This document shows, piece after piece, positions 5,001 through 47,928 of a DNA stretch of 64,000 nucleotides. Position 1 is the stretch's first letter; every line of letters starts with the position of its first letter. The DNA is taken from positions 2,102,001 to 2,166,000 of the forward strand of contig NC_013132.1 in the NCBI RefSeq assembly GCF_000024005.1, written 5' to 3'. The notes below the pieces were generated by a model that had not been told where the DNA came from, made no database searches, and saw nothing but the letters and a program-made list of their open reading frames with translations. Origin of the DNA: Chitinophaga pinensis DSM 2588. GTDB taxonomy: Bacteria > Bacteroidota > Bacteroidia > Chitinophagales > Chitinophagaceae. The position numbers and the translations under genes are program-made.

Positions 5001-6145
5001 GTACGACTGCTACGCAGAACAACAACAACCCTTTCAGTCAGCTGTATACAGCCGCAGGTACGTATGCCGTAAAACTGTCTGTCGTGAGTGATAATGGCTG
5101 TGTAAGCGATACCACTACCAAGAACGCTGTTGTACACGCATTACCGGTCGCCAATTTCAATCCGTCTGCAGCGATCTGTATGCCGGAGGGAAACGCAGTA
5201 TTTACCAACTTATCTACCGCCGCAAATACTTATGAATGGAATTTCGGTGATGGCAGTGCCACTGCTACTGACAGAAACCCTTCACATGTTTTTACAACGG
5301 CAGGTAGCTACAATGTGACCTTATCGGTCGTATCTGCTTATGGCTGTACACATGATACCACTAAAACACTCAGCGCATTTTTCAATAAACCTACAGCTGC
5401 TTTTACAGCCTCTCCTGATACCTTATGTCAGGGTACAGACAATTTCTTCGCCGATAACAGTACAGTTGATAATGGCGCTATTAGTGCCTGGTCCTGGGAG
5501 TTTGGTGATGGTAGTTCCGACAATATCGCGGACCCTGTGAAGCGATACCAGGAACCGGGTGCTTACACTGTACAACTGACGGTGACAAGTACTGCAGGTT
5601 GTATCTCCGAGCCATTTACCGCACCGGTAACCGTGTATTTACAACCTGTAGTAGATGCCGGGCCTTCATTCGTGGTAGCAGAAGGATCTGTTGTACAATT
5701 CGCACCTGTTGTAAATAATGAAAACGAACTCACTTTCAGATGGACGCCTGCTACTGATCTGTCCAATCCGGATATCCTGCGGCCTGTACTGACCGTAACA
5801 GCAGATGCGGTATATACCCTGACTGCTACCGGCCTTGGTGGTTGTACCGCCAGTGATGACCTGTCTGTAAAAGTATTCAAAGAAGTAAAAGTCCCCAATG
5901 CTTTTTCTCCGAATGGAGATGGCATCAATGATACCTGGGTATTGACCAACCTGTCTGATTACCCGGAGTGTTCTGTTGAAATCTTTAACCGTTATGGACA
6001 GAAGATATTTCAGTCCACCGGTTATAAAACAGCATGGGATGGTACGATGAATGGACATCCGCTGCCACTCGCTACTTACTATTATGTCATAAAAATAAAG
6101 AATGGATCTGCGCCGCTGACTGGTTATGTAGTGTTGGTGAGATAA
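2030..6145 (+). CDS. IgGFc-binding/multi-PKD surface protein with type B sorting domain
   Basis: 1371 residues with a signal peptide ending near AMAQG. An internal ATG at 2063 would also give a good signal peptide, so the start is uncertain by 11 codons. The N-terminal third matches the IgGFc-binding-protein-like domain of the upstream paralogue. It is followed by six PKD-type modules, each marked by a WxWxF/WxFGDG-like signature (QWKWVFPGG, EWNWDFGNG, TYTWDFGDA, TWNWQLGDG, YEWNFGDG, AWSWEFGDG), an Ig-like segment between them, and a C-terminal type B sorting domain (VPNAFSPNGDGINDTW). Probably an extracellular adhesin or filament secreted by the type IX system with the PorP/SprF-like proteins just downstream. 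A tandem duplicate of the preceding gene with more PKD units. Confidence 0.92.
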   Translation: MTTFVTNIFKNMQAAVRTGAAACLLTLCGVSAMAQGLSNRGKEFWVGYGHHQFMEPGFTNSQNMVVYLSAEEAANVTISIDGTAWSRTYNIPANTVIVSDLIPKAGSVDARLYSVPPSYGGTGGEGVFSNKGIHIISDVPIVAYAHIYGSVSSGATMLMPVSTWGYSYISLNSQQSFANDCFSWMYVVAKEDNTMVEINPSESSRNGRPANVPFTVTLNRGDIYQLVGAPLGGGKGKELTGTTVRSIANASGKCFPIAVFSGSSRTSINCPGSTAGTSGDNNMQQVFPYQAWGKRYLTAPISGRVATSFQTNLYKVVVKDPSTVVKRNGVVLTGLSHSCYEFISNTADYIEADKPVLLAQFMASQGGCPNTTGIGDPEMIYLSPIEQATKKVAFYRNNVEKIEVNGLLLVIPDNGIPSLKIDGQPTFDLSYPHPNLPGYTVVVKRWTAAAAQCTVQSDSAFNATTYGLGDFESYGYNAGTFINNLNAIGQIHNQADTSRAMHPFTCVNTPLDLSVLLTYQPTKLEWQLSKLGANINPAADVLQDSPAPAKQLVIEGVQYYQYTLPQPYRFPNAGYYDITVLSTAPHIDNCNNTEEVNFTVAVKGKPDAVAAYTFSTACELDTAYFAGKDSSNGYKLTQWKWVFPGGVTSALQQTDQHLNAGTQAITLAVATEDGCVADTSFNLTVYNKPVADFAATTAAICAGSTVTFNDKAAYVGTAPIKEWNWDFGNGTSKTNTTNAATTAAYTDYKTYTVSQVVKVSDLCVSDTVKKTVTVYAAPVASFTYPDDCITQGTPVQFTSTATASDGQAIATYTWDFGDANATPVNPNTSTVNNPLHSYTYYGSYKIRHSVTTVNGCVKDTLVTATFNVKPVLTYASIPAVCESVKGTVSIALAGVTNGVTGAGIYRGPYIDAAGNFNPSAARAGTHTVTYVFTADSGCKDSVTANVNVLPAPLADFSLTADVCLGSVVTITDQSTVGSGSIITWNWQLGDGTTATQNNNNPFSQLYTAAGTYAVKLSVVSDNGCVSDTTTKNAVVHALPVANFNPSAAICMPEGNAVFTNLSTAANTYEWNFGDGSATATDRNPSHVFTTAGSYNVTLSVVSAYGCTHDTTKTLSAFFNKPTAAFTASPDTLCQGTDNFFADNSTVDNGAISAWSWEFGDGSSDNIADPVKRYQEPGAYTVQLTVTSTAGCISEPFTAPVTVYLQPVVDAGPSFVVAEGSVVQFAPVVNNENELTFRWTPATDLSNPDILRPVLTVTADAVYTLTATGLGGCTASDDLSVKVFKEVKVPNAFSPNGDGINDTWVLTNLSDYPECSVEIFNRYGQKIFQSTGYKTAWDGTMNGHPLPLATYYYVIKIKNGSAPLTGYVVLVR

Positions 6146-6191
6146 GTATAAACAACTATTTAAAACATTGATCAAATAAAAAGCTGACATC

Positions 6192-7199
6192 ATGAGAACT
6201 TTTACCAAAGCATTGTTGATGCTGTGCTTAGTGGGCCTGACCGGTAAAAAGCTGCAGGCGCAATCCGACCCGCACTTCTCCGGTTACTATGTGTATCCGG
6301 CATGGTTGAATCCTGCGCTGACAGGTGTATTTGATGGCGACTACCGTGTATCTGCCATCTATCGTTCTCAGTGGGGAAGTGTGAGCAGCCCTTTTAAAAC
6401 CTATGGTATTGCAGGAGAAGTGAAGACGAATAACAATATCAACTTCGGCGCCAGTGTACTGAATCAGAAAGCAGGAGACGGAGGATATAACTATACGACT
6501 GCCTATGGTAGCGCTTCTTATACAGGTGTACGCCTGGGTGCATTCGAACAACACAGGCTGGTATTTGGTCTCCAGATGGGACTGATCCAACGCAGATTTG
6601 ATCCGGCTAAACTCCACTTTGGTGATCAATGGAATCCTATCACTGGTTACAATCCTGGCCAGGCTACCAATGACATGTTCAACAAAACAACTTCCGCCGC
6701 TTTTGATGCAGGCGCCGGTGTATTGTACTATGATGCACAGCCGGGTAAGAAATATAATCTCTATGGTGGTTTTTCTGTCATGCACCTGAATAAACCAAGT
6801 GATCAGTTCAGCGCTACCGGCGATGCCCGCATCCCTATGCGTACCACTGCACATGCCGGTGTAAGAGTGACCATTTCAGAACTGTTCAGCCTCACGCCCA
6901 ACGTCCTGTATATGAAGCAGGGTGCAGCGTCTGAGAAGATGCTGGGTGCTTATGGTCAATACGCTGTATCAGCTGAAACAGATGTCATGCTGGGGGCTAA
7001 CTATCGTCTCAAAGATGCATTCTCTGTCTATACAGGGGTAAGCTATAAAAGCTTTATGCTCGGATTGAGCTATGATGTCAACTCTTCTGATCTGGGTAAG
7101 ATCACCAGGGGTAATAACAGCTTCGAACTCTCTTTATCATTCATTGGCAGGAAGTCAGTGAAAACACCAGCCGGTGATTTCGTTTGCCCAAGGTTATAA
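6192..7199 (+). CDS. PorP/SprF family type IX secretion outer-membrane protein
   Basis: 335 residues with a signal peptide (cleavage after KKLQAQ) and the family opening DPHFSGYYVYPAWLNPALTGVF, followed by an amphipathic beta-barrel-like sequence. PorP/SprF proteins sit in the outer membrane; SprF of Flavobacterium johnsoniae is needed for export of the type B cargo SprB. Its position 46 nt behind two type B cargo genes suggests a dedicated secretion or attachment partner, by inference. A second, divergent family member lies at 8982-10019 in the same operon. Confidence 0.9.
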   Translation: MRTFTKALLMLCLVGLTGKKLQAQSDPHFSGYYVYPAWLNPALTGVFDGDYRVSAIYRSQWGSVSSPFKTYGIAGEVKTNNNINFGASVLNQKAGDGGYNYTTAYGSASYTGVRLGAFEQHRLVFGLQMGLIQRRFDPAKLHFGDQWNPITGYNPGQATNDMFNKTTSAAFDAGAGVLYYDAQPGKKYNLYGGFSVMHLNKPSDQFSATGDARIPMRTTAHAGVRVTISELFSLTPNVLYMKQGAASEKMLGAYGQYAVSAETDVMLGANYRLKDAFSVYTGVSYKSFMLGLSYDVNSSDLGKITRGNNSFELSLSFIGRKSVKTPAGDFVCPRL

Positions 7200-10708: not shown

Positions 10709-10740
10709 AAAAGAGACTCCGGTTTTGGAGTCTCTTTTTT
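10709..10740 (+). terminator. Rho-independent terminator
   Basis: Hairpin with stem AAGAGACTCC / GGAGTCTCTT, a short loop and a following T run. It closes the unit ending at 10687 and lies before the GH92 gene. Confidence 0.9.
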
Positions 10741-10781
10741 CATTTGTACTTTACCTGTCCTATCATGCAAAAAGGAATCTA

Positions 10782-13037
10782 ATGAAAAGAAACAGGTACT
10801 TGATAAGTACAGCCATTTTAGTCTTAGGAATTACCACGTCAGCGTTGGCTCAGGTGGGTGCAGGCAGCACCTGGAAACCTACAGGAAATTTAACTTATGT
10901 AGATCCCACTATCGGTAGTGTGGGACTGATTCTGGAGCCTACCAGGCCCGCTATGTATCTGCCAAACAGTATGGTGAGGGTATTCCCTTCCCGGAAAGAT
11001 CAGCTGGAAGATCAGATCAACTTTTTTCCACTGACAATAGCCTCTCATCGTCAGCAAAGCCTTTTTGGCTTTATGCCGCTTTCCGGTGAGGTGAATACCG
11101 AAAACTGGAAGCGTTCAAGAGTGTATGACCGGGAAAAGATATCACCTTGCAAATATTCTGCATATCTGGATGATACTGACGAGATCACATTTGCACCCGC
11201 AGCTCACAGCGGATATTTTGAGATTGACTTTACAGGTAATACGCCGCATTACCTGCGTCTGAGCATCCTCAACCGTGACGGAGATTTGACCGTAGACGGT
11301 AAACGCGCTATCAGTGGCCGGGAAACTTTCAACGGTATGAGCGCTTATTTTTATGCGGAAGTGAATGCGGATATCATCGGTACCGAATACCGCGGAGATA
11401 AGAAACAGCACCTGTTTGCCGCATTGGGTAACAATCCGCAGAAAATAGCCGTACGCTACGGTGTTTCCTTCATCAGCGTAGAACAGGCGAAAGCTAACCT
11501 GAAGAAAGAAATTCCTTTATGGACGATTTCACCGCTCGTGATTAAAGGTGCAGCAGCCTGGAACAAGGTGCTGGGTCAGATTAATGTAAAAGGTGGTACA
11601 GACGCACAGAAGCGGGTATTCTATACCTCCCTGTACCGCGCTTACGAGCGCATGGTGAATATCAACGAGTACGGTCAGTACTACAGCGCCTACGATCATA
11701 AAGTACATACTTCCGACAAGCCTTTCTATGTGGATAACTGGCTATGGGATACCTACATCGCACTGGAACCACTCCAAACACTGTTAAATCCGGAAATGGA
11801 AGCCGATAAGATCCGCTCTTATGTGGATATGTACGAGCAGAGCGGCTGGATGCCTTCATTCGCAGTAGCGCATGGTGATATGCCTTGTATGACAGGTAAC
11901 CACGCAGCGGCATGGATGGCAGATGCCTGGTTCAAAGGCGTACGCAATTTCGATATTGCAAAGGCATATGAAGGACTGAAAAAGAACTCCTTACAGGCTA
12001 CTTTACTGCCCTGGAGAAACGGTCCTGCTACCTCGCTGGATACATTCTACACAGAACATGGTTATATGCCTTCCCTGAAACCGGACGAGAAAGAAACCGT
12101 GAAGGAAGTAGATGATTTTGAACGCCGTCAGGCAGTAGCGGTAACACTGGAAAACAGCTATGACGACTGGTGTATTGCCCAACTGGCAAAAGCAGCTGGT
12201 CATCCGGAAGACATTCCGTTGTTCCTGAAACGTGCCACTAACTACAAAAATGTATATCGTGCAGATAAAGGCTTTATGTGGCCGAAAGATGCAGATGGTA
12301 ACTGGATAGAACCTTTTGATCCTAAGTTCTCCGGCGGACAGGGCGGACGTGACTATTTCACGGAAAACAATGCTTACACCTATAACTGGGATGTAAAACA
12401 TGACCTGACCGGCTTATTTGACCTGATGGGTGGAAAAGCAAAGGCAGAGGAAAAACTGGATCAGTTATTCCGTGAAAACCTGGGTCGTAGTAAATACAAT
12501 CTCTGGTATACCTTCCCGGATGCAACTGGTATGGTAGGTCAGTTTGTAATGGGAAATGAACCAAGTTTCCACATTCCTTACCTCTACAATTACACCGGTG
12601 CGCCATGGAAAACACAGAAACGTATCCGTATGCTGCTGGATACCTGGTATACTGACAACCTGTTTGGCATTCCAGGAGATGAAGATGGTGGTGGTATGAC
12701 CGCATTTGTGGTATTCTCCATGATGGGTTTCTGTCCGGTAACCCCTGGTATTCCGGTGTATAATATCGGTAGCCCGGTGTTCTCTGAGATTACCATCAAA
12801 TTGTTCAGTGGTAAGACATTCACGATATCAGCACCAGGTAGTTCTGCTACTAAAAAGTATATCCAGCGTGCTACGCTGAACGGTCAGCCGCTCAATGTAC
12901 CCTGGTTTACACATGAAGACCTGCTGAAAGGTGGTGTACTGGAACTGGTAATGAGCGAATCGCCTAATAAAGAATGGGGTACAGGAGCGCAGGCAGCGCC
13001 GCCTTCTTCCCTCAATTACAGCCCGGCGGGAAAATAA
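10782..13037 (+). CDS. GH92 family alpha-mannosidase
   Basis: 751 residues, signal peptide ending TSALAQ. The ATG at 10782 is chosen because the longer frame begins with a TTG inside the upstream terminator. Family blocks are visible: ENNAYTYNWDVKHDLTGLF, GNEPSFHIPYLYNYTG and PGDEDGGGMTAFVVFSMMGF. In GH92 the last block holds the acidic residues (here D633 and D635) of the calcium-dependent inverting mechanism. Known family members are exo-acting alpha-mannosidases that trim N-glycans or mannans in the periplasm or at the surface; the exact linkage cannot be read here. No SusCD pair is adjacent. A bidirectional terminator and a heptamer array follow the stop. Confidence 0.93.
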   Translation: MKRNRYLISTAILVLGITTSALAQVGAGSTWKPTGNLTYVDPTIGSVGLILEPTRPAMYLPNSMVRVFPSRKDQLEDQINFFPLTIASHRQQSLFGFMPLSGEVNTENWKRSRVYDREKISPCKYSAYLDDTDEITFAPAAHSGYFEIDFTGNTPHYLRLSILNRDGDLTVDGKRAISGRETFNGMSAYFYAEVNADIIGTEYRGDKKQHLFAALGNNPQKIAVRYGVSFISVEQAKANLKKEIPLWTISPLVIKGAAAWNKVLGQINVKGGTDAQKRVFYTSLYRAYERMVNINEYGQYYSAYDHKVHTSDKPFYVDNWLWDTYIALEPLQTLLNPEMEADKIRSYVDMYEQSGWMPSFAVAHGDMPCMTGNHAAAWMADAWFKGVRNFDIAKAYEGLKKNSLQATLLPWRNGPATSLDTFYTEHGYMPSLKPDEKETVKEVDDFERRQAVAVTLENSYDDWCIAQLAKAAGHPEDIPLFLKRATNYKNVYRADKGFMWPKDADGNWIEPFDPKFSGGQGGRDYFTENNAYTYNWDVKHDLTGLFDLMGGKAKAEEKLDQLFRENLGRSKYNLWYTFPDATGMVGQFVMGNEPSFHIPYLYNYTGAPWKTQKRIRMLLDTWYTDNLFGIPGDEDGGGMTAFVVFSMMGFCPVTPGIPVYNIGSPVFSEITIKLFSGKTFTISAPGSSATKKYIQRATLNGQPLNVPWFTHEDLLKGGVLELVMSESPNKEWGTGAQAAPPSSLNYSPAGK

Positions 13038-13038
13038 A

Positions 13039-13069
13039 AATTAAAAATTAAGAATTAAGAATTAAAAAT
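13039..13069 (+). repeat. AATTAAG heptamer array, forward arm, convergent junction A
   Basis: About 4.4 units of AATTAAA/AATTAAG beginning 1 nt after the GH92 stop codon. It faces the inverted array at 13234-13265. Confidence 0.85.
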
Positions 13070-13125
13070 CGGGGCTGAATGTATTGATATCGAGGTACTT
13101 TCCAGACCAATTTTAATTCGTAAAA

Positions 13126-13170
13126 ATATAAGGGGCTGACCAAAATTTTACTTTGGTCAGCCCCTTATAT
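13126..13170. terminator. Bidirectional terminator, 19-bp perfect stem
   Basis: Perfect inverted repeat 13126-13144 / 13152-13170 (arm ATATAAGGGGCTGACCAAA) with a 7-nt loop and A/T-rich flanks on both sides. It lies between the convergent GH92 and ArsR genes and can serve both. Confidence 0.9.
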
Positions 13171-13233
13171 TTTACTATTTATAGTTATAACTTACTTAAT
13201 TATCTAATAAACAACAATCTTCGCTGCATTTCC

Positions 13234-13265
13234 AATTCTTAATTCCTAATTCCTAATTCCTAATT
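13234..13265 (-). repeat. AATTAGG/AATTAAG heptamer array, reverse arm, convergent junction A
   Basis: Read on the minus strand: three AATTAGG units, one AATTAAG and a partial unit, starting 1 nt after the ArsR stop. It is followed by AATGCAGCGAAGAT, a tail also found after the array at 47735. Confidence 0.85.
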
Positions 13266-13266
13266 T

Positions 13267-13569
13267 TTACAGTTCCTTTAATATCAAATCCCCCAACTGC
13301 TTTATCGCCTCTTCATTTCGCTTATAATGCGTCCACTGCCCTAAACGGGTCGCTATCAGCAGATTAGCCCGCTGTAATAAAGACAGGTATTCTGACACGG
13401 TGGATTGTGTCAGTCCTGATTTCTGCTGAATGTGTCCCACACATACACCTGTTTTCGCAAACTCACCACATTCCTGTTTAGGGAAATGTTTTTCCGGTTC
13501 CTTCAGCCAGGCTAATATTTCGAGCCTCTTTTTGTTGGATAAGGCCTTAAAAACGTCTACTTGATCCAT
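13267..13569 (-). CDS. ArsR-family winged-helix repressor
   Basis: 100 residues, the usual ArsR/SmtB length. FKALSNKKRLEILAWL opens the winged-helix fold, and GLTQSTVSEYLSLLQRANLL is the recognition helix region. Two cysteines (C34, C43) before the HTH could bind a metal or sense redox, but the classical ELCVCDL metal motif is absent, so the signal is unknown. A TACCTTTG element sits exactly 4 nt before the ATG. Divergent from lysA at 13672; no obvious target operon is adjacent. Confidence 0.88.
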   Translation of the reverse strand: MDQVDVFKALSNKKRLEILAWLKEPEKHFPKQECGEFAKTGVCVGHIQQKSGLTQSTVSEYLSLLQRANLLIATRLGQWTHYKRNEEAIKQLGDLILKEL

Positions 13570-13573
13570 ACTA

Positions 13574-13581
13574 CAAAGGTA
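13574..13581 (-). promoter_or_regulatory. -7 element TACCTTTG of the ArsR gene
   Basis: Matches the Bacteroidota -7 consensus TAnnTTTG on the minus strand, with only TAGT between it and the ATG, so the transcript should start at or next to the start codon. No clear -33 element was found. Confidence 0.6.
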
Positions 13582-13671
13582 TCGGAATTCCCCGATTTTT
13601 AGCCGTAGCGATTTTATAATGTTTTCATAACAATAATTTCTGCTATCTTAATGTTTTATAGATAATTTTTT

Positions 13672-14979
13672 ATGGATTTGTTTCAATATAAGAATGGCGT
13701 ACTGTATTGCGAGGATGTTCCCGTAGACAGTCTGCCGGCCAAGGGCCTTCCGACTCCTTTTTACCTGTATTCTGCGAACACGCTCAGGTTGCATTATAAG
13801 AAGATTTATGGTGCTTTTGAGAAGCTGGATCCTGTCATCTGTTTTTCGGTAAAATCGAGTAACAATGTTCACCTGCTGAATGAACTGGCAGCCCTGGGCG
13901 CCGGTATGGATATCGTGAGCGGGGGAGAGCTGTTTGTGGTGAAACAGAGCAATGCTGACCTGTCTAAAGTAGTTTTTGCAGGTGTAGGTAAATCTGATGA
14001 AGAAATCACGGACGCCATCCTGAGTGAGGTGGGTTATATCAATATCGAGTCAGAACAGGAACTGGCAAGGGTACAGGAACTGGCAGGCGACCTGAAAAGA
14101 GAGGTGAGTGTACTGATCCGCATACAGCCGGATATCACCGACGAAAAGACCAATGAAAAGACCCGGACAGGTTATAAAGGTGCAAAATTCGGGATTGATT
14201 ATGCAAACGTGGAAGCGCTGATAGAAGAGAATGCAGATCATCCTTTTGTGAAAATCAAAGGACTGCATTGTCATATTGGTTCACCGATATCTTCTTATAC
14301 ATTTTATGAAGAATGTATCCGTAAGATGGTAGGTCTGACGGAGTCTTTGAAGCAGAAGAATATCATCCTGAAAGTATTGAATATCGGAGGTGGATTTCCT
14401 GCTAATTACATGGATAACGACAATTTCTCCTGGGAGAGTTTTGCCGGTCCGATCATTGAATTACTGGAGCCTTATGTGAAAAAGGAAGGATTTAAGATCA
14501 TCCTCGAACCGGGAAGGTCTATTTCTGCGAATACAGCGGTCCTGGTCACCAGGGTACTCTACGTTAAAAAATCCGGCGACAAAAATATCGCGATACTGGA
14601 TGCCGGTATGACGGAACTGATCCGTCCGGCGATGTACAATGCCTTTCATTTCATATGGCCGGTTAAGCCGGAGGCACAGCACCTGCTGACTAACAGGAAC
14701 TATCCGGTAGAACAGGAAGGATTGACAAATTATGACGTGGTAGGGCCTATCTGTGAATCGTCCGATTACCTGGCGAAGGAACGTGCTTTGCCGCCATTAC
14801 AGCAGGGAGATTATGTAGCCGTATTTACTGTAGGCGCCTACGGCATGGTAATGGCCAGCAATTATAACCTGCATGTGAGACCCGCTGAAGTAATGATTGA
14901 TAAAGACAAAATATATATCATCAGGGAACGTGAAACCCAGCAGGACCTGGTGAGAAAAATGATCAGACACGAACTGTAA
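13672..14979 (+). CDS. lysA: Diaminopimelate decarboxylase
   Basis: 435 residues. Converts meso-diaminopimelate to L-lysine, the last step of lysine biosynthesis, in the cytosol with PLP. Alanine-racemase-type barrel with the PLP lysine in CFSVKSSNN (K61), the HCHIGS block, the glycine-rich phosphate site NIGGGFP, EPGRS, and the C-terminal active-site block GPICESSDYL containing the conserved cysteine. Length fits LysA. The related carboxynorspermidine and arginine decarboxylases are less likely given GPICESSD. Monocistronic or followed by the SUFU gene 32 nt downstream. Confidence 0.93.
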   Translation: MDLFQYKNGVLYCEDVPVDSLPAKGLPTPFYLYSANTLRLHYKKIYGAFEKLDPVICFSVKSSNNVHLLNELAALGAGMDIVSGGELFVVKQSNADLSKVVFAGVGKSDEEITDAILSEVGYINIESEQELARVQELAGDLKREVSVLIRIQPDITDEKTNEKTRTGYKGAKFGIDYANVEALIEENADHPFVKIKGLHCHIGSPISSYTFYEECIRKMVGLTESLKQKNIILKVLNIGGGFPANYMDNDNFSWESFAGPIIELLEPYVKKEGFKIILEPGRSISANTAVLVTRVLYVKKSGDKNIAILDAGMTELIRPAMYNAFHFIWPVKPEAQHLLTNRNYPVEQEGLTNYDVVGPICESSDYLAKERALPPLQQGDYVAVFTVGAYGMVMASNYNLHVRPAEVMIDKDKIYIIRERETQQDLVRKMIRHEL

Positions 14980-15010
14980 TGTTAATCACCAATTGTAAAT
15001 GTTAATCACC
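14978..15010 (+). repeat. 13-bp direct repeat between lysA and the SUFU gene
   Basis: AATGTTAATCACC occurs at 14978-14990, overlapping the lysA stop, and again at 14998-15010, just before the next ATG. It looks like a small local duplication; role unknown. Confidence 0.6.
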
Positions 15011-15011
15011 T

Positions 15012-15665
15012 ATGACAAAGGAAGAGTACAGTAAACTGTTCACGGCAGATGATGCAGTGGGCTGGCTGGCAATTGACAAACAGCTGGACAGCATTTATCC
15101 GGGACAGGAACCAAGGCATTATGCACCGCCTTTACATTTCATGGTCGGAGGAGAAGACCCTATTGACGGTACCAGCATCTATGACAGTGAAAAGCAGATG
15201 AAGCACTTACACCTCGTCAGCTATGGCATGTCACAGTTATATTATGATGAAGAACAGGCTGGTAAGGAATTCAGTAAATGGGGCTTCGAATTTACCTTCC
15301 GCTTAAAACCATTTGCAGAAGATGAAGGCGATCCCGGATGGGCCATCCGGATGATGAATAACCTGGCCCGCTATGTATATAAAAGCGAGCGTTGGTTTGA
15401 ACCTTACCATTTTGTACCTGCAAACGGGCCAATCAGACTGGAAACGGCAACGGATATTGTAGGACTGGCATTTGTCCAGGATCCTGAATTAGGTGTGATA
15501 AATACACCGCATGGTGAAGTGACGTTCCTGCAGATGGTAGGACTGACAAAAAAAGAAGTTGAACGACTGCTGGCTAAACCACAGACCAGTGAAGTCGAAA
15601 AGCTGATCGACGAGATGCGGGAATATAACCCGCTGCTGATTACAGATCTCGACAGAGCAGACTAA
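15012..15665 (+). CDS. Suppressor-of-fused (SUFU) domain protein
   Basis: 217 residues, cytosolic, no signal peptide. The segments LHFMVGGEDPIDGTSIYDS, HLHLVSYGMSQLYYDE, KWGFEFTFRLK and GWAIRMMNNLARYVY are typical of bacterial SUFU-domain proteins. In animals SUFU represses Gli; in bacteria the fold appears as a stand-alone protein of unknown role or as immunity protein to secreted toxins. No toxin gene lies next to it, so an immunity role is unsupported here. It ends at a good terminator. Confidence 0.85.
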   Translation: MTKEEYSKLFTADDAVGWLAIDKQLDSIYPGQEPRHYAPPLHFMVGGEDPIDGTSIYDSEKQMKHLHLVSYGMSQLYYDEEQAGKEFSKWGFEFTFRLKPFAEDEGDPGWAIRMMNNLARYVYKSERWFEPYHFVPANGPIRLETATDIVGLAFVQDPELGVINTPHGEVTFLQMVGLTKKEVERLLAKPQTSEVEKLIDEMREYNPLLITDLDRAD

Positions 15666-15668
15666 TTG

Positions 15669-15700
15669 AAAGAGCCCGCATAAAAGCGGGCTCTTTTTTT
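15669..15700 (+). terminator. Rho-independent terminator
   Basis: Stem AAAGAGCCCGC (15669-15679) pairs with GCGGGCTCTTT (15686-15696), followed by T's. It ends the lysA/SUFU unit. Confidence 0.92.
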
Positions 15701-15734
15701 GCAGTATATGCAAGAAAAAAGTTAACACCTGTTT

Positions 15735-16613
15735 ATGGAATCCTGTTGTAACCCGCATCCTATTAAAAACGTTGTTGCCTTGAAGTACTTATCCTGGACC
15801 TTTGTGGTCCTGTTTGTTACCGCGGTTGCTGTACTGTCCTGGCAATATTTACAGGCCAAAGCACCGCATCCGGTATCTGCCCCTTACTATAAAACAGTAG
15901 GACAGCTGCCATTGCCGCCCGGTTTTAAAAGAGAACCTGTAGCGAAAGGGTCATTTGGTGAATGGCTCAGGACAATTCCTTTAAAAACAGATAATACGGT
16001 ATATCTGTATAACGGACAGAAAAAGGGAAATCAGACTGCACAATATGCCGTACTGGATATCTCTGTTGGCAAAAAAGATTTACAGCAATGTGCAGATGCC
16101 GTGATTCGCTTATATGCAGAGTATTTATATGCATCGCACCAGTATACGAAAATAGCCTTTCATGCTACGGATGGTACATTGATGGACTACAGCAGCTGGA
16201 TGAAAGGATATCGCTATCCTGTAAAACAGGGCCGTTTACAGAAGCAGCTGACGGGTGCGCCTTGTAAGGGAGATGCTTGTTTTGCTGATTTTCTGCAGAC
16301 CGTTTTCTCTTACGCCGGCACTTTATCGCTCAGTAAAGAATTGAATGTTGTGAATAATCCTGCTGCCATCAATATCGGTGATGTGTTTATCCGTGGAGGT
16401 TCTCCTGGTCACGCTGTGATCGTAATGGATATGGGTGTCAATAACGCGGGACAGAAGACTTTTTTGCTGGCACAGAGTTATATGCCCGCACAGGATATTC
16501 ACATACTGCAAAATCCAACCAGGAATCAAGATCCCTGGTACCAATATAACGGCGGAAAAATATTAAGCACACCCGAATGGATTTTTGACTGGAACCAGCT
16601 AATGAGGTTCTGA
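15735..16613 (+). CDS. DUF4846 membrane-anchored protein
   Basis: 292 residues. One transmembrane segment near the N terminus (about 18-40) follows a cysteine-containing cytoplasmic tail (ESCCNPHP); the remainder is predicted extracytoplasmic. The sequence GSFGEWLRTIPLK near residue 75, FADFLQTVFSYAGTLSL and GDVFIRGGSPGHAVIVMDM match my recollection of the DUF4846 family, whose function is unknown. The conserved GHAVIVMD resembles the His block of NlpC/P60 or transglutaminase-like enzymes, but I cannot assign a catalytic triad. Stands alone downstream of a terminator. Confidence 0.82.
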   Translation: MESCCNPHPIKNVVALKYLSWTFVVLFVTAVAVLSWQYLQAKAPHPVSAPYYKTVGQLPLPPGFKREPVAKGSFGEWLRTIPLKTDNTVYLYNGQKKGNQTAQYAVLDISVGKKDLQQCADAVIRLYAEYLYASHQYTKIAFHATDGTLMDYSSWMKGYRYPVKQGRLQKQLTGAPCKGDACFADFLQTVFSYAGTLSLSKELNVVNNPAAINIGDVFIRGGSPGHAVIVMDMGVNNAGQKTFLLAQSYMPAQDIHILQNPTRNQDPWYQYNGGKILSTPEWIFDWNQLMRF

Positions 16614-16663
16614 TAAGATTGTCACTCCCTATACCATGTAATGCCGGTCAGGCTGCTGATCCA

Positions 16664-16782
16664 CACATCAGTATGCCTGCCGGCTTTTTGAATGTCTGTC
16701 TTTCCCGGCATGACATACTGATTTTGCAATTGAGGTGAAACACATCAGTATGCCTGTCAACTTCTTGAATGCCGGTCTTTCC
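16664..16782 (+). repeat. Imperfect 42-bp direct repeat
   Basis: Copies at 16664-16705 and 16741-16782 share 36 of 42 bases (both begin CACATCAGTATGCCTG and end GGTCTTTCC or TGTCTTTCC) with 35 bp between them. They lie in the 278-bp space between the DUF4846 and DUF1349 genes. No gene or hairpin explains them. Confidence 0.75.
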
Positions 16783-16891
16783 TGTTATACCACACTCCTT
16801 TTGAAGTTCAGGTAAATTTGAATATTTTGCAATGATGTAACCCGTTCCTTTCTATTATTCACCAACTTTTTTATTCGCTCAAAACAATCCG

Positions 16892-17434
16892 ATGAAGTGG
16901 AATAACGAACCCAAAAACTGGTCAGGTAATGAAACAAAACTCAGTTGTACCATTGAACCAGACACCGACTATTGGCGGATCACACATTATGGTTTTATCC
17001 GTGATAACGGTCCCTTTTATTATAAAGAAATGACAGGGAATTTTGAAGCCGGCGTAAAGATCAGCGGACAGTATACAGAACTGTTTCACCAGGCTGGCTT
17101 AATGGTCAGAATTGATGAAAAGAACTGGATCAAAACCGGTATTGAATACGTGGATGGTGTACAGAATGTAAGCGCCGTCGTTACCCGTGAAGTGTCTGAC
17201 TGGTCTGTGATACCCAGACATGACAGTCCGGCTGCTATCTGGCTGACCTTACTCCGAAAAGGCGATTATGTAGAGATAAAATACTCTTTTGATGGCGTGA
17301 AATATGAGATGTTGCGACTGGCTTATTTTCCGCCTGATGTAAAGGCAGGTATTGGTATTGTGGCTGCGGCTCCGGGAAAGGAATCGTTTGAGGTGGTATT
17401 TGAAGATTTTCAGGTGAAAGAAATTAAGAATTAA
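16892..17434 (+). CDS. DUF1349 concanavalin-like protein
   Basis: 180 residues, no signal peptide. The order of WRITHYGFIRDNGPFYYKE, NFEAGVKISGQY, HQAGLMVRIDEKNWIKTGIE and VEIKYSFDGVKYEMLRLAYF is that of the DUF1349 family (yeast Ree1-like), a concanavalin-type jelly roll linked to carbohydrate or enolase regulation in fungi. Its biochemical role in bacteria is not established. Unusual end: the last residues I-K-N and the stop are encoded by the first two units of the AATTAAG array that follows. Confidence 0.87.
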   Translation: MKWNNEPKNWSGNETKLSCTIEPDTDYWRITHYGFIRDNGPFYYKEMTGNFEAGVKISGQYTELFHQAGLMVRIDEKNWIKTGIEYVDGVQNVSAVVTREVSDWSVIPRHDSPAAIWLTLLRKGDYVEIKYSFDGVKYEMLRLAYFPPDVKAGIGIVAAAPGKESFEVVFEDFQVKEIKN

Positions 17435-17720
17435 GAATTAAGAATTAAGAATTAAGAATTAAGAATTAAGAATTAAGAATTAAGAATTAAGAATTAAGAA
17501 TTAAGAATTAAGAATTAAGAATTAAGAATTAAGAATTAAGAATTAAGAATTAAGAATTAAGAATTAAGAATTAAGAATTAAGAATTAAGAATTAAGAATT
17601 AAGAATTAAGAATTAAGAATTAAGAATTAAGAATTAAGAATTAAGAATTAAGAATTAAGAATTAAGAATTAAGAATTAAGAATTAAGAATTAAGAATTAA
17701 GAATTAAGAATTAAGAATTA
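17422..17720 (+). repeat. AATTAAG tandem array, about 42.7 perfect heptamers
   Basis: 299 bp of uninterrupted AATTAAG with no variant unit, starting inside the DUF1349 coding end. Because the unit is 7 bp, every reading frame on both strands meets TAA within 21 nt. It is the expanded forward arm of convergent junction B; the inverted arm is at 17799-17830. Confidence 0.98.
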
Positions 17721-17798
17721 CTCCGCGCTAAAAAAAAAATTACCAAAACTTAAGACATTATCAGAAAAGGATGCCTTCAATAGTACAGGGGGCTAACC

Positions 17799-17830
17799 AA
17801 TTCTTAATTCTTAATTCCTAATTCCTAATT
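17799..17830 (-). repeat. AATTAGG/AATTAAG array, reverse arm, convergent junction B
   Basis: On the minus strand: two AATTAGG units, two AATTAAG units and a partial unit, placed just beyond the GH2 terminator. It is separated from the expanded forward array by 78 bp. Confidence 0.85.
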
Positions 17831-17863
17831 AAAAAAGGGCCGGTCCAGAAGAACCAGCCCTTT
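17831..17863 (-). terminator. Terminator of the GH2 gene
   Basis: On the minus strand AAAGGGCTGGTTC pairs with GGACCGGCCCTTT (two G-U pairs) with a 4-nt loop, followed by a T run, 21 nt after the GH2 stop. Confidence 0.88.
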
Positions 17864-17884
17864 CCTGTTGTTGTCTTTTAATAA

Positions 17885-20284
17885 TTATTGGTTCTTATTG
17901 TTGTCAATAGCCTGACGGAACATATTTCTTTCCTGTTCAGGAATGTTCTGTCCGTATTTTTCCAGGTAGGTATTTGCTGCGGAAGCATAGTTAGACCAGT
18001 CCTGTTTATTGAAAGTATACACGGTTTTGGCACGCAGATAGATCTCGTCACCCGGATCGCCATAAGGTTTAATGCTGTTGGCAATAGCTGACCAGTCAGG
18101 ATCTGCACTCTTCTGCAATACAGGGTCGATCACGTCTTTGAATACGATATTCATCAGTTTCACAGTCACCGGTCTTTTCTCTAACTGAGGATTGCTGGAT
18201 TGCAATTGTTGCTGTAATACAGCAAAACCTTTGTCTTTTGTACTGTTGGTGAACTGAAGGATCAGATCCAGCTGTTCAGGCGTATAAGGAGCGTGTAATG
18301 AGGCAATATAGGCACTGCCGGCCAGGTTAGCGCCTTCTTTATCGCCAGCCTGTTTTGCCATCATAGCGAGCTTGAAGAGGAATGAGGCATCGCGGCGGCC
18401 CCCTACGTATTCCTGCAGCATTTTACTGTAGGCGACGATCGGGTCGGTCAGGTCTGCATTCATGGCGGTTACCTGTGGTACAGTACCCAGATCAGGGTTC
18501 AGTGATGCATGGATACTACGCATCTGCTCAAACGGGATTTTAACCACTTCACGGTCGTACGTTAATAAGCCGTTCTGCTCACCTTCCACATCAAAAGGCT
18601 GTGTATAGATTGAGCCGGACAAGCCATCTGCTTCCAGCAGTTTCAGGTGCTGGTTCATGATGTTATATTTAGCCGCCAGTGCAGCTGGTTTTTCCTGTAT
18701 ATATCCCCAGGCGCTGCCGGTATTCCATTGGTGTTCAGGAATGAATACACCGATACCGCCAAACTCACCCAATACCCTTGCTTTACCTGGTTCTGCGGGT
18801 GCGTTCATCGGGTCAGGGTAGGAGTGTACGTCGGTCATATCTGCACTTACCCATGCATTCGGAGACGGGCTGCGCAGTTGTTCATTTACATACAGCATTT
18901 CACCGGAGTGACCATTTACGATACGGGAAGGATCCGCGCTTTTCACCCATTCAGTGATACGCTGCTGATCATAGGCACCCCATTTCTCATTAAAGATTAC
19001 CCAGGTAGTGATAGAAGGGTAATTATGCAGTTGTTCCAGCGTTTCTTTGGTTTCTTTCTCATACTCCGCTTTAGCGCCTTCCGGTAATCCCTGGTTAGGA
19101 TTCACGAAATCCTGCCATACCAGCATCCCCAGTTTGTCTGTATGATAATACCAGCGGGCTGGTTCAACCTTGATATGTTTACGGATGGTATTAAAACCCA
19201 TTGCTTTAATGGCTTCAATATCAAATTTCAGCGCATTATCGGTAGGGGCGGTGTACAGTCCGTCAGGCCAGAAACCCTGATCCAGGGTACCCAGATTGAA
19301 GTATGGTTTGTTATTCAGGAAGATGCGGTCAACGCCTTTTTCATCTTTCTGAATGGCGATTTTACGCATCCCGAAGTAGCTTTTTACTTCATCAACTGTT
19401 TTGCCGCCTTTGCTGAGTTTTACGGTGAGATCATACAGGAAAGGGCTGGCAGGAGACCACAGTTTCGCGTTCTTCACAGGCAGTTTCAATGGTACGCCTG
19501 CTTTGCCTTTTATTTTGCTGACTTCTGTGCCGTTATCAGTGGCGATCAGTTCTACATTAGTACCTGCCGGCGCGTTTACGCTCACGTTCAGGACGTTTTT
19601 GTCTACGTCGGGAGTAAGGGTCAGTCCTGCGATATAGGCTGCAGGCACTGTTTCCATCCAGACGGTCTGCCAGATACCGGAAGAAGGTGTATAATAGATA
19701 TTAGCCGGGTTCAGTACCTGTTTACCGTGAGGGCCAATGCCTTCACTGGTAGGGTCATAAACCTTTACTACAATTTCATTTTCTCCGTCTTTCAGGGCAG
19801 CGGTAATATCCTGTGAGAAAGACTGATAACCGCCAGCGTGTGTACCTGTTTCTTTACCGTTTACATAGACAGTCGCCTGCCAGTCTACGGCGCCGAAATG
19901 TAATAACACGTGTTCGCCGTTTTTCAGAGGCGTTTGTACAAATGTGCGCTTGTACCAGAGGTGTTGTGTAGGCAGCAGCGGCTTTTTTACGCCTGAAAGT
20001 GCAGATTCCAGCGGAAACGGCACGAGTATCTGATCCGCAAAGGCGGATGGCATGGCGGCGTCTTTGGGGGTAATGGTATATTGCCACAGGCCATTCAGGT
20101 TTTGCCAGTTCTCACGCACCATCTGTGGGCGAGGGTACTCCGGGAGGACATTGGTTGGGGATACTTCCTGTGCCCAACGGGTTTTGATTGTTGAGGACTG
20201 TGCTTTCCAGCCGGTCTGCGCCATAACGCCCTGACCAAGCACGACACTTAATAAACATACACTAGCAGTCTTAATCAGATTCAT
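17885..20284 (-). CDS. GH2 family glycoside hydrolase (beta-galactosidase/glucuronidase type)
   Basis: 799 residues with a signal peptide ending GVMAQ. In order: sugar-binding jelly roll (about 45-215), Ig-like beta-sandwich (about 215-310) and TIM barrel (about 315-600). The acid/base is E433 in WVIFNEKWG and the probable nucleophile is E507 in VLGEFGG. The LacZ-type substrate loop is not recognisable, so the sugar (galactoside, mannoside or glucuronide) is open. The last 180 residues (about 610-799) form a helix-rich tail that is not part of the usual GH2 fold. A LacI-type palindrome lies 60 nt upstream of the ATG, matching one before the first susC at 50270. Confidence 0.93.
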   Translation of the reverse strand: MNLIKTASVCLLSVVLGQGVMAQTGWKAQSSTIKTRWAQEVSPTNVLPEYPRPQMVRENWQNLNGLWQYTITPKDAAMPSAFADQILVPFPLESALSGVKKPLLPTQHLWYKRTFVQTPLKNGEHVLLHFGAVDWQATVYVNGKETGTHAGGYQSFSQDITAALKDGENEIVVKVYDPTSEGIGPHGKQVLNPANIYYTPSSGIWQTVWMETVPAAYIAGLTLTPDVDKNVLNVSVNAPAGTNVELIATDNGTEVSKIKGKAGVPLKLPVKNAKLWSPASPFLYDLTVKLSKGGKTVDEVKSYFGMRKIAIQKDEKGVDRIFLNNKPYFNLGTLDQGFWPDGLYTAPTDNALKFDIEAIKAMGFNTIRKHIKVEPARWYYHTDKLGMLVWQDFVNPNQGLPEGAKAEYEKETKETLEQLHNYPSITTWVIFNEKWGAYDQQRITEWVKSADPSRIVNGHSGEMLYVNEQLRSPSPNAWVSADMTDVHSYPDPMNAPAEPGKARVLGEFGGIGVFIPEHQWNTGSAWGYIQEKPAALAAKYNIMNQHLKLLEADGLSGSIYTQPFDVEGEQNGLLTYDREVVKIPFEQMRSIHASLNPDLGTVPQVTAMNADLTDPIVAYSKMLQEYVGGRRDASFLFKLAMMAKQAGDKEGANLAGSAYIASLHAPYTPEQLDLILQFTNSTKDKGFAVLQQQLQSSNPQLEKRPVTVKLMNIVFKDVIDPVLQKSADPDWSAIANSIKPYGDPGDEIYLRAKTVYTFNKQDWSNYASAANTYLEKYGQNIPEQERNMFRQAIDNNKNQ

Positions 20285-46147: not shown

Positions 46148-47735
46148 TAGTACTCCCATATTCAAACCATGGGCCTCTGAATGGCTGATCAGGATCGTGA
46201 TATTCCTGAACCTGATGCCATCTATGCTGATGTTTGGTATCTCTACCGCAAGCGGATCCAATGCCGCAGGTTACTACGGTATAGAACCAGCAGATGTACA
46301 GTACTCTATGGTGTTGTTTTATGCGTCGCTGGCAGGCTTCTTTGCGTTGGAAAGAAGATTCTTCATTTATATTGCCAGTAAGGAATACCTGCTCATTGGC
46401 GTAATTATACAGATAGTCACTTCCTACGGATGTTTTGTTACACGCGATCTTTATGTATTGTTACCGCTCCGTTTCATTCAGGGGATGGCCAACTGTATCA
46501 CCACCAGTGTTTGTATAACGCTTGTATTCAGCCGGTTGAGAACGAACCGTGCCCGTGAGGTCGGTTATTCACTGTTCTATGGTGTGTTGCTGGGTATTAC
46601 GGCTTTTACCACATTGGTTACAGCGCCGATCATAGATGCGTTTGACTTCAACGTATTGTATAAGTGGATGATTTTTACCTACATCCCTGGCGCAATATTA
46701 CTGGTCATTATCATGAACAGGATCCGCCTGAACAGGAAAATACCTTTGTATCAGCTGGATTGGGCCAGTTATGTGGTATATACCACCATGCTCTGTTTAA
46801 TCGGATATATCCTTTTATATGGGCAACAGTATTACTGGTTGCAGGATGAACGTATTATGGCGGCGAGCATTGCGGCAGTTGTGCTACTGCTTATCCACAT
46901 TATCAGGCAACGGTCTTTGAAAAGACCTTATCTCAGTCTGGACGTATTCCGTTATCGTAACTATGTCATCGGGGTAAGCCTTATTACGGTACTATATGTT
47001 TGCAGAGGTGCTTTTAATATCACTACGAACTATTTTATAACGGTCCTGGGACTGGATCCGAGACACTTGTCTTACATCTTACTGGCGAACATCGCCGGTA
47101 TCATATTAGGGGTGCTTTACTCTTCCAGGTGGATATTGATGAAGCGTTCCGTAAGATGGATCTGGATGGCCGGCTTCTCATTGTTACTGATATTTCATCT
47201 GTGGATGCACGCTCTGTTTGCCACACAGGCAGATGTACCCACTTTTATCATACCATTGATCTTACAGGGTATAGGTGTGGGCCTTTTGATGGCGCCCATG
47301 ATTATTTATACCATTTCTTCAGTGCCCGCGCATCTGGGCGGTACTGCTTCCGCAACAGGGGTATTATTCCGTTTTACAGGTTTCTGTATCTCCATTGCGT
47401 TGATCAATTACTTTCAACTGTTTTCCAGAAAAGTTCACTACAACCGTTTTCTGGACCTGGTCACCTCGCTGGATCCCTTAGTGACAGCCAAGCTGGTAAA
47501 CTACAAAACGGCTGTTGCTGCAAAAGGGCTTCCGGCCGATCAGGCAGCAAAGATTGCCAACGGACTACTATATCGCTCTGCCGATATGCAGGCGCAGATA
47601 AGATACTCCATGGACTATTACTACCTGATCAGCTGTGCATTAGTAGTGATCATACTGCTGATTGCCTTTGTGCCTTATCTGAACAGAACAGTGATCAATC
47701 TGAGAAATAATCAGCCTGCGCCGGCGTCGTATTAA
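46140..47735 (+). CDS. MFS (DHA2/EmrB-like) transporter
   Basis: 531 residues with about 14 hydrophobic helices, the DHA2 count. Motif-A-like SRLRTNRAREVGYSL in the loop after helix 4 and PLRFIQGMANC. Completes an EmrAB-TolC-like tripartite exporter. Substrate unknown: typically hydrophobic toxins or metabolites. The stop codon is followed immediately by a heptamer array. Confidence 0.92.
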   Translation: MANSTPIFKPWASEWLIRIVIFLNLMPSMLMFGISTASGSNAAGYYGIEPADVQYSMVLFYASLAGFFALERRFFIYIASKEYLLIGVIIQIVTSYGCFVTRDLYVLLPLRFIQGMANCITTSVCITLVFSRLRTNRAREVGYSLFYGVLLGITAFTTLVTAPIIDAFDFNVLYKWMIFTYIPGAILLVIIMNRIRLNRKIPLYQLDWASYVVYTTMLCLIGYILLYGQQYYWLQDERIMAASIAAVVLLLIHIIRQRSLKRPYLSLDVFRYRNYVIGVSLITVLYVCRGAFNITTNYFITVLGLDPRHLSYILLANIAGIILGVLYSSRWILMKRSVRWIWMAGFSLLLIFHLWMHALFATQADVPTFIIPLILQGIGVGLLMAPMIIYTISSVPAHLGGTASATGVLFRFTGFCISIALINYFQLFSRKVHYNRFLDLVTSLDPLVTAKLVNYKTAVAAKGLPADQAAKIANGLLYRSADMQAQIRYSMDYYYLISCALVVIILLIAFVPYLNRTVINLRNNQPAPASY

Positions 47736-47768
47736 ATTAGGAATTAGCAATTAGGAATTAAGAATTAG
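47735..47768 (+). repeat. AATTAGG/AATTAAG heptamer array, forward arm, convergent junction C
   Basis: About 4.9 units (AATTAGG, AATTAGC, AATTAGG, AATTAAG, AATTAG) starting on the last base of the MFS stop codon. The array is followed by AATGCAGCGGAGAT, nearly the same tail as beside the array at 13234. Confidence 0.87.
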
Positions 47769-47837
47769 AATGCAGCGGAGATGATGTGGATGGTATAATA
47801 CAATTTGCTTAGCTGTCAATGTGTATATAGAGGGAAA

Positions 47838-47865
47838 AGAAGCGCTTCATTGCCGAAGCGCTTCT
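47838..47865. terminator. Bidirectional terminator hairpin
   Basis: AGAAGCGCTTC pairs perfectly with GAAGCGCTTCT, 6-nt loop, between the two heptamer arrays of junction C. Confidence 0.85.
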
Positions 47866-47890
47866 CATTTATGTTAGTTTGAAGAAAATT

Positions 47891-47928
47891 ATTCTTAATT
47901 CTTAATTCTTAATTCTTAATTCTTAATT
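47891..47928 (-). repeat. AATTAAG heptamer array, reverse arm, convergent junction C
   Basis: On the minus strand 5.4 perfect AATTAAG units. The first two encode the last residues I-K-N and the stop of the gene at 47916. Confidence 0.9.

Follow-up and report, generated by a model that had tools for sequence, protein, structure and literature searches.

Inverted pairs of AATTARG heptad arrays at gene 3' ends in Chitinophaga pinensis

In a 64,000-nucleotide stretch of the Chitinophaga pinensis genome (hereafter referred to as the window; G000:C1:2102001-2166000 of the single 9,127,347-bp contig searched), arrays of the heptamer AATTAAG or AATTAGG (together, AATTARG) face inverted arrays of the same kind across three junctions between convergent genes. 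The initial annotation of this DNA proposed that they belong to a genomic element marking transcript ends. This raises the question of whether the paired arrays are a fixed mark that the host builds at its gene ends, or something that has arrived there.

Paired arrays in the window and across the genome

The three inverted pairs are present, at or a few bases from where they had been placed (Table 1), and are far above chance expectation. With up to one mismatch allowed, AATTARGAATTARG is matched 58 times in the window where 0.17 matches would be expected, and 0 of 100 shuffles reach 58; all of these matches fall at the three sites (13039, 17422 and 47735), and the best 21-mer elsewhere in the window has 5 mismatches. 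The four other convergent junctions, described as lacking an array, carry no arm (best 21-mer 7–11 mismatches), and the hairpins lie where the initial annotation had them, within the arms at 13039 and 47735 and outside at 17422. The spacers between the arms measure 171, 87 and 124 bp for elements 1, 2 and 3, rather than the 78–164 bp claimed. The arm-to-stop distances are +1/+1 (13039), −13/+54 (17422) and −1/−13 (47735); the arrays are therefore as close to stop codons as had been noted (within 2 nt, or overlapping), at five of the six arms rather than four. The inner tail ATGCAGCGGAGAT comes after the element 3 forward arm, and the AATTGGAAATGCAGCGAAGATTG-type tail of element 1 also adjoins heptads elsewhere in the genome. 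A known RNA family was considered for positions 12900–18000, and discarded: the six matches with an E-value of 0.1 or better are all far below gathering scores.

Table 1. Features of the three elements and their flanking genes, in window positions; the last row lists insertion sequence loci elsewhere in the genome.
Feature	Position	Strand	Remarks
GH92 gene	10725-13037	+	Element 1 forward arm starts 1 bp past its stop
Element 1 forward arm	13039..13066	+	4 heptads, A-rich variants; TRF 13031-13069
Element 1 terminator-like hairpin	13127..13169	unassigned	Between arms
Element 1 reverse-arm inner tail	13215..13237	-	AATTGGAAATGCAGCGAAGATTG on - strand
Element 1 reverse arm	13238..13265	-	4 heptads; 1 bp from stop of ArsR-like HTH gene
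ArsR-like HTH gene	13267-13569	-	Convergent to GH92; both Pfam matches below cut-offs
DUF1349 gene	16892-17434	+	Stop codon supplied by element 2 forward arm
Element 2 forward arm	17422..17720	+	TRF: 42.7 copies of AATTAAG, 100%
Element 2 reverse-arm inner tail	17791..17802	-	AATTGGTTAGCC on - strand
Element 2 reverse arm	17803..17830	-	4 heptads; 54 bp from GH2 stop
Native terminator hairpin beside element 2	17834..17863		Also in YS-16 and YR627, both without element 2
GH2 gene beside element 2	17885-20284	-
MFS transporter gene at element 3	46140-47735	+
Element 3 forward arm	47735..47769	+	5 heptads; overlaps last stop base of MFS gene
Element 3 terminator-like hairpin	47839..47864		Between arms
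Element 3 reverse arm	47894..47928	-	5 heptads; supplies stop of convergent gene
Convergent gene at element 3	47916-49427	-	No Pfam match
IS4-family IS loci	L291-L300, e.g. L295:1604-2842	-	Two copies in one array

Genome-wide, three consecutive AATTARG heptads give 452 + 482 overlapping matches. The stricter search for three AATTAGG heptads gives 83 matches and its reversed form 0; this control is void for AATTAAG arrays, since their reversal is the same repeat in another phase. The placement of arms was analysed in a sample of 1.664 Mb (GC 0.452), consisting of the window and 80 stretches of 20 kb, of which 60 were taken at 76-kb intervals from the first 4.58 Mb, outside the window, and 20 at intervals of 200–300 kb from the remainder, with genes called by a home-made ORF and hexamer script rather than a standard caller. 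A 21-bp segment was counted as an arm if it differed from three heptads at no more than 4 positions, and as a strong arm if at no more than 2; by this definition, the element 2 forward arm spans 17422-17715, with 42 heptads. The sample holds 114 arms, 107 of them strong, against 8 arms in one 3-mer-block shuffle. Leaving aside the strong arms close to a stretch end, 103 remain; an opposite arm is present within 300 bp on the inner side of 88 of them and on the outer side of none, and 15 are unpaired on both sides.

The sample contains 45 paired elements, of which 19 lie between convergent, 22 between tandem and 4 between divergent genes. Three of the convergent ones are those of the window, which is the discovery site; without it 42 elements remain (16, 22 and 4, respectively). 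Counted per junction with a gap of at least 0 (173 convergent, 761 tandem and 177 divergent junctions, or 190, 834 and 178 when overlapping genes are included), elements are found at 19/173 convergent junctions versus 22/761 tandem (p = 2.7e-5) and 4/177 divergent ones (p = 0.001). Of the 95 arrays with at least two exact heptads, tandem junctions account for 46, convergent ones for 39 and divergent ones for 8; one is at a stretch edge and one overlaps a gene end. The initial annotation had opposed the convergent placement to arrays being found equally elsewhere; the enrichment holds, but a convergent junction is not required, as inverted pairs also occur at tandem and divergent ones. In a tandem junction one arm is antisense to both genes, and the pairing thus does not result from neighbouring genes that mark their ends separately. 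Rather, it is a property of the element, and independent arrays at individual gene ends are ruled out by the inverted pairs at tandem and divergent junctions.

The association with gene 3' ends is well borne out. At 47 of the 60 gene 3' ends facing an element, the arm edge lies between −20 and +11 bp from the stop codon, and at 18 gene ends it lies at −6, −13 or −20, where the array itself provides the stop codon, through its AATTAR stop in one of three frames; the heptads hold TAA or TAG in every frame of both strands. Within the same −20 to +11 range, 12 of the 19 convergent elements touch both stops, six touch one and one touches none, while at tandem junctions the element is closer to the upstream stop than to the next start in 17 of 22 cases (p = 0.017). 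At convergent junctions the median distance from stop to hairpin is 75 bp with an element (n = 22) versus 26.5 bp without (n = 152; p = 2.5e-5), as if an arm had been inserted between the two. In a Tannerella MAG (L066:4736-4749), two heptads are found at the stop of a homologous GH92 gene; none of the other related loci compared has an exact double heptad, and this one may be due to chance.

The arms are of similar size, with four heptads on 29 and five on 28 of the 90 arms (57/90 together), and outliers of up to 42. The elements span 82–409 bp and their cores 10–190 bp (45 elements). Some arrays are pure, with 42 perfect copies at 17422 and 8–24 heptads at others. Across the 45 elements, no excess similarity was found between the two arms of one element, whether aligned from the outer (z = 0.51) or the inner end (z = 1.31), and the variant AATTAAC is present in both arms of five elements (p = 0.28). 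Arms of one element are therefore no more alike than arms of different elements, and no selection on their pairing was detected. At one locus (L324; G000:C1:6270001-6271500), a forward arm is followed by two tandem reverse arms 116 bp apart, perhaps a duplicated half-element.

Inner tails, recurring cores and hairpins

Inward of the heptads, many arms carry a conserved tail. The form GGAATGCAGCGRAGAT, with at most one mismatch, is found at 53 places in the genome, against 0 for the reversed pattern, and all 30 of the places fetched adjoin at least one heptad; the arm tail is also written GGAATGCAGCGGAGAT. A typical compact element consists of heptads, AATTGGAATGCAGCGGAGATCTTCGCGGTAATT and inverted heptads. 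By the patterns used, the named tails are present on only 26 of the 90 arms. Other repeats are seen beyond the tail at two loci, namely a long GATA tetranucleotide run at L230, shortly after G000:C1:2563, and a tandem array of GAGGGGGGATTATT-like units at L212, beside G000:C1:1863805.

Some cores recur. The 97-base core of the element at 2,358,005 has homologues at 2,360,470 (query 1-84) and 2,370,913 (query 18-75), and its stem (33-84) is also found at 2,384,630, other matches all having E-values of at least 0.4. These four places lie within 27 kb, and all are between arms. In the relative YR627, which is ∼91% identical in the window region, a core of this type is seen at the 2,360,470 site, and not at the 2,358,005 or 2,370,913 sites. 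The core of 2,449,338 recurs at 1,419,205 (79% over 58 bases), between arrays, and at 6,790,206 (75% over 84), where there is an array on one side. Of four cores searched, the three window cores have no second copy in the genome, the core of element 1 matching at an E-value of 1 or better only its own reverse strand and one 25-base stretch. Comparing cores of at least 40 bp with each other, 33 of the 1128 pairs exceed the top score from an equal number of shuffled pairs, although many of these owe their score to the common tail, similar stems or orthology.

As RNA, all 14 compact elements fold well (z −4.1 to −14.5; in a separate run, L225 has z −6.5), far better than shuffles, as is expected of elements selected for inverted arms; base-pairing of the arms in RNA, as the initial annotation suggested, is thus plausible. 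In the window, 13039-13180 has a z-score of −7.7, 47735-47884 of −1.25, and 17715-17840, a part of element 2, of −0.12; of the three, just the fold at 13039 is clearly exceptional. By a simple criterion, a strong hairpin is found inside 14 of the 45 elements and only on the outside in four, the remaining 27 having neither. Such a hairpin is inside 9 of the 19 convergent elements, compared to 73 of 104 element-free convergent spacers of 40–400 bp. Hairpins are thus rarer in elements than in element-free convergent spacers, which argues against a general role in termination. Judging from the sequences, the case for a terminator role would be strongest where an element stands in for a terminator.

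Turnover among relatives and the origin of the elements

The elements have a patchy distribution. Three consecutive AATTARG heptads are found in 15 of 79 Chitinophaga genomes, C. pinensis included, and only C. pinensis is rich in them; heptads followed by the tail are found in six of the 79. Across the class, 12 of 395 genomes, again including C. pinensis, match three AATTAGG heptads, mostly with one array each among the matches listed. Within the family, 294 genomes (of these 294, only six are from the genus Chitinophaga) were searched for the arm tail with up to two mismatches, and 8 have it, with 57 places in C. pinensis and one in each of the seven others, against 2 for the reversed control. 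In another Chitinophaga genome (G043), the same tail lies mostly beside the heptad AATTACG (18 matches), with inverted partner arms behind, and in nine such pairs the longest exact inverted match is 11–30 bp. The arms with the 30-bp match (L302) include a flanking GTTTT in it. In the same genome, three terminator-bearing pairs with stems that are similar by eye lie within 5 kb (L308, G043:C20:642001-652000, about 3017-7120).

Comparison with YR627 was made only where its contig C3 is syntenic, and hairpins as well as decayed heptads and stems were compared by eye from the sequences. Of the C. pinensis sites in this region, 16 could be mapped and three could not. In YR627 arrays are present at three of the 16, decayed heptads at 4–5, and neither at 8–9, the ranges reflecting one site (L154) that has none by eye and decayed heptads by a second criterion. 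At 13039, the arm is absent from all 12 loci with a homologous gene (best 21-mer 6–7 mismatches), eight of which keep the convergent neighbour. YS-16 and YR627 have no arms there and share a hairpin that is missing from C. pinensis, so that the arms and hairpin of element 1 are new in the C. pinensis lineage. For sites other than 13039, the direction of change is presumptive.

Gene ends with and without arms were compared among the 137 junctions aligned with YR627. The median identity of convergent spacers is 0.49 where only C. pinensis has arms (n = 6), versus 0.90 for armless ones (n = 11); these numbers are small, and as arms lengthen the spacer and thereby lower identity by themselves, the hairpins are a better measure. 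At the six junctions the hairpin is different in three, missing from C. pinensis in one, alike and between the arms in one (L146 5759, where YR627 has a remnant of one arm), and kept outside the arms in one (17422), while a recognisable stem is kept at 8 of the 11 armless controls. Seven compact or near-compact elements could be compared, and YR627 has arms at four and none at three. At L225 and L229 it has a hairpin terminator where C. pinensis has a compact element. Of these loci, two could be read in G001 for arms: decayed arms are present at one (L237), and none at the other (L216).

The patchy distribution, the absence of arms at orthologous junctions and the terminators that differ between strains are more indicative of an element that spreads than of the fixed mark of transcript ends that had been proposed. 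It is, on balance, just probable that the pairs belong to a non-autonomous inverted-repeat family, similar to REPINs or MITEs, that sits at gene 3' ends and carries or replaces terminators. Each pair would be one element that moves as a unit, its core flanked by two inverted arms that each have about four or five AATTARG heptads, the core being either a short bare palindrome (10–50 bp) or a longer sequence, often with a hairpin terminator. A small number of Chitinophaga lineages, C. pinensis foremost among them, would have been colonised by the family, which would insert beside or across stop codons and most frequently at convergent junctions. At these sites, the heptads could replace the native stop codon, and the hairpin of the core or of the whole element would replace or join the native terminator and may end transcripts. 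Slippage would later alter arm length, to as many as 42 copies, and the arrays are landing sites for an IS4-family insertion sequence (see below). Against this count that no mover was found, that the arms do not covary, that 15 of 103 strong arms are unpaired, and that counts outside the C. pinensis genome are small. No target-site duplication is readable by eye at the orthologous sites, where heptad ends and replaced spacers would hide one. A longer autonomous element was also considered, at three sets of facing tails 1.8–5.3 kb apart (7,365,935/7,367,752, 7,923,744/7,927,163 and 4,578,971/4,584,306). No transposase was found among the nine genes between them, which include, by Pfam, a Na/H exchanger, an acyl-CoA dehydrogenase, an arginase and an acetyltransferase, and the tails belong to short pairs or lone arms.

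It is also possible, if unlikely, that the arms are old and fixed and that only the core moves, by ectopic gene conversion or recombination between arrays, swapping terminators; this needs no transposition beyond a first spread. The 2,384,630 site fits, as C. pinensis (L286) and YR627 (L244) share the arms and the outer terminator there while their core hairpins differ, and so do the confinement of one recurring core to 27 kb, the three pairs clustered in G043, and the arms kept at some sites in G001. However, YR627 is armless at 8–9 of the 16 mapped sites and none of the 12 loci homologous to 13039 has an arm, so that arms must also reach new sites, and another core recurs over megabases.

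I consider it less likely again that the pairs are a host signal for 3' ends under selection, such as a terminator, an RNA stabiliser or a protein-binding site, built where it is needed. The seat at stop codons, the convergent enrichment, the strong folding of compact elements and the persistence of some elements at orthologous places in G001 would all be expected of such a signal. It is difficult to reconcile with matches in just 15 of 79 genomes of the genus, of which C. pinensis alone is rich, with a relative of ∼91% identity that is armless at about half of the mapped sites, with arms that do not covary, or with the ordinary hairpins that most array-free convergent junctions possess. Finally, it is very unlikely that AT-rich stop regions (TAA, AATTA) simply grew arrays in place by slippage, the pairs being two independent ends: this accounts for the 42 perfect copies at 17422 and the other pure arrays, for orthologous arms of 12 versus 2 heptads at L141 4386, and for the double heptad in the Tannerella MAG, and it survives as an explanation of array length, but it cannot be the whole explanation, since it conflicts with the pairing rule (tandem and divergent genes also have inverted pairs between them, and none of the 103 arms has an outward partner) and leaves the usual arm length, the tail, the recurring cores and the differing terminators unexplained.

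Known repeat families and an insertion sequence in the arrays

The closest precedent for these elements is the GGGAATC heptamer of Xanthomonas (Rehm et al., 2015; PMC4692102), which is treated there alongside the GGGGA(T/C)T heptamer repeats of Nostoc. In the available part of that account, GGGAATC arrays mostly have four units (range 2–26), are mostly intergenic with few between divergent genes, and form close pairs in convergent orientation (70 cases in Xcc, 75 in Xac). Downstream of genes they lie mostly 0–50 bp from the stop, on the sense strand and in some cases overlapping it; upstream of genes they are mostly on the opposite strand. Long repeats are at different genes in two species, and the authors found the surroundings to be more conserved than controls, with generally no association with mobile elements. 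The period of seven, the arms of about four heptads with a range into the tens (here up to 42), the convergently oriented pairs, the sense-strand position at or over the stop and the scarcity between divergent genes are thus common to both. In contrast, GGGAATC is G-rich and was read by its authors as a G-quadruplex motif, while AATTARG has no G-tract and no run of three G. The conserved tail, the terminator exchange and the targeting by an insertion sequence are features of AATTARG, none of which is noted in that part of the account of the Xanthomonas repeats.

REPINs are inverted doublets with a spacer that replicate as a unit and can form hairpins (Bertels & Rainey, 2011; PMC3116915), and the GTAG/CGTC REPs are found downstream of coding regions, for the most part where the neighbouring genes are convergent or unidirectional (PMC3733652). 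The AATTARG unit is likewise an inverted doublet (88/103 inward, 0/103 outward). It differs in that its arms are stacks of heptads with no GTAG/CGTC tag (by eye on arms and tails), and in that its cores can hold a terminator. Nor is there a RAYT (Y1_Tnp, PF01797) in C. pinensis or in any of eight relatives, although 5 of 14 control genomes were positive, which rules out a RAYT as the mover.

The small size (82–409 bp), inverted-repeat ends and intergenic location are also those of MITEs. BrickBuilt, a MITE of Porphyromonas gingivalis, itself in the Bacteroidota, has a tandem repeat within a small element, with an internal unit of 23 nt, and lies 49–591 nt from genes (PMC4596501). In AATTARG, however, it is the inverted ends that are made of the repeat, directly next to the stop codon, and no parent IS is known. 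The TAACTGA repeats of Beggiatoaceae, Cyanobacteria and some Bacteroidetes (MacGregor, 2015; PMC4679880) are also patchily distributed intergenic heptamer repeats, with up to 43 copies in Bacteroidetes and Cyanobacteria. According to the available part of that study, they are direct rather than inverted pairs, and in the main genome mostly lie just upstream of starts.

No earlier description of AATTARG elements was found in the literature searched, which left most subscription papers outside, and the C. pinensis genome paper, in its accessible text, mentions repeats only as a CRISPR count of 0 (PMC3035255). The paired heptamer anatomy is known from Xanthomonas; the AT-rich heptad, the terminator exchange and the role as IS target are new here. 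An AT-rich version with the same anatomy provides a natural control against the G-quadruplex reading of the G-rich repeats. A broader, and doubtful, proposition is that AATTARG, GGGAATC and perhaps other heptamers are of one general kind, in which the period of seven, about four units, the inverted pairing and the seat at the stop matter and G-quadruplex chemistry does not, and which act as mobile, exchangeable terminators, carrying or swapping hairpins and bringing their own stops. If true, small repeat elements would rewrite gene ends in some bacteria, replacing stops and terminators, which would change how the evolution of 3' UTRs is read.

The arrays are themselves the target of an insertion sequence of 1.44 kb, encoding a 412-residue transposase of the IS4 family (NF033592, 222 bits against a cut-off of 115) and having the ends CTATAGTGTCCGG. 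A search with one 24-base end found ten copies, all of them inside heptad arrays and with AAT or ATT on both sides; target duplications of 3 and 10 bp are indistinguishable here, given the period of the array. A similar preference is found for ISRm22, also of the IS4 family, all copies of which are in REPs (ten of ten in the table of the part available, nine in the text; Tobes & Pareja, 2006; PMC1525189). The target in Chitinophaga is a tandem heptad array instead of a REP, and this insertion sequence, with all ten copies found in such arrays, adds another example of an IS whose target is highly selective.
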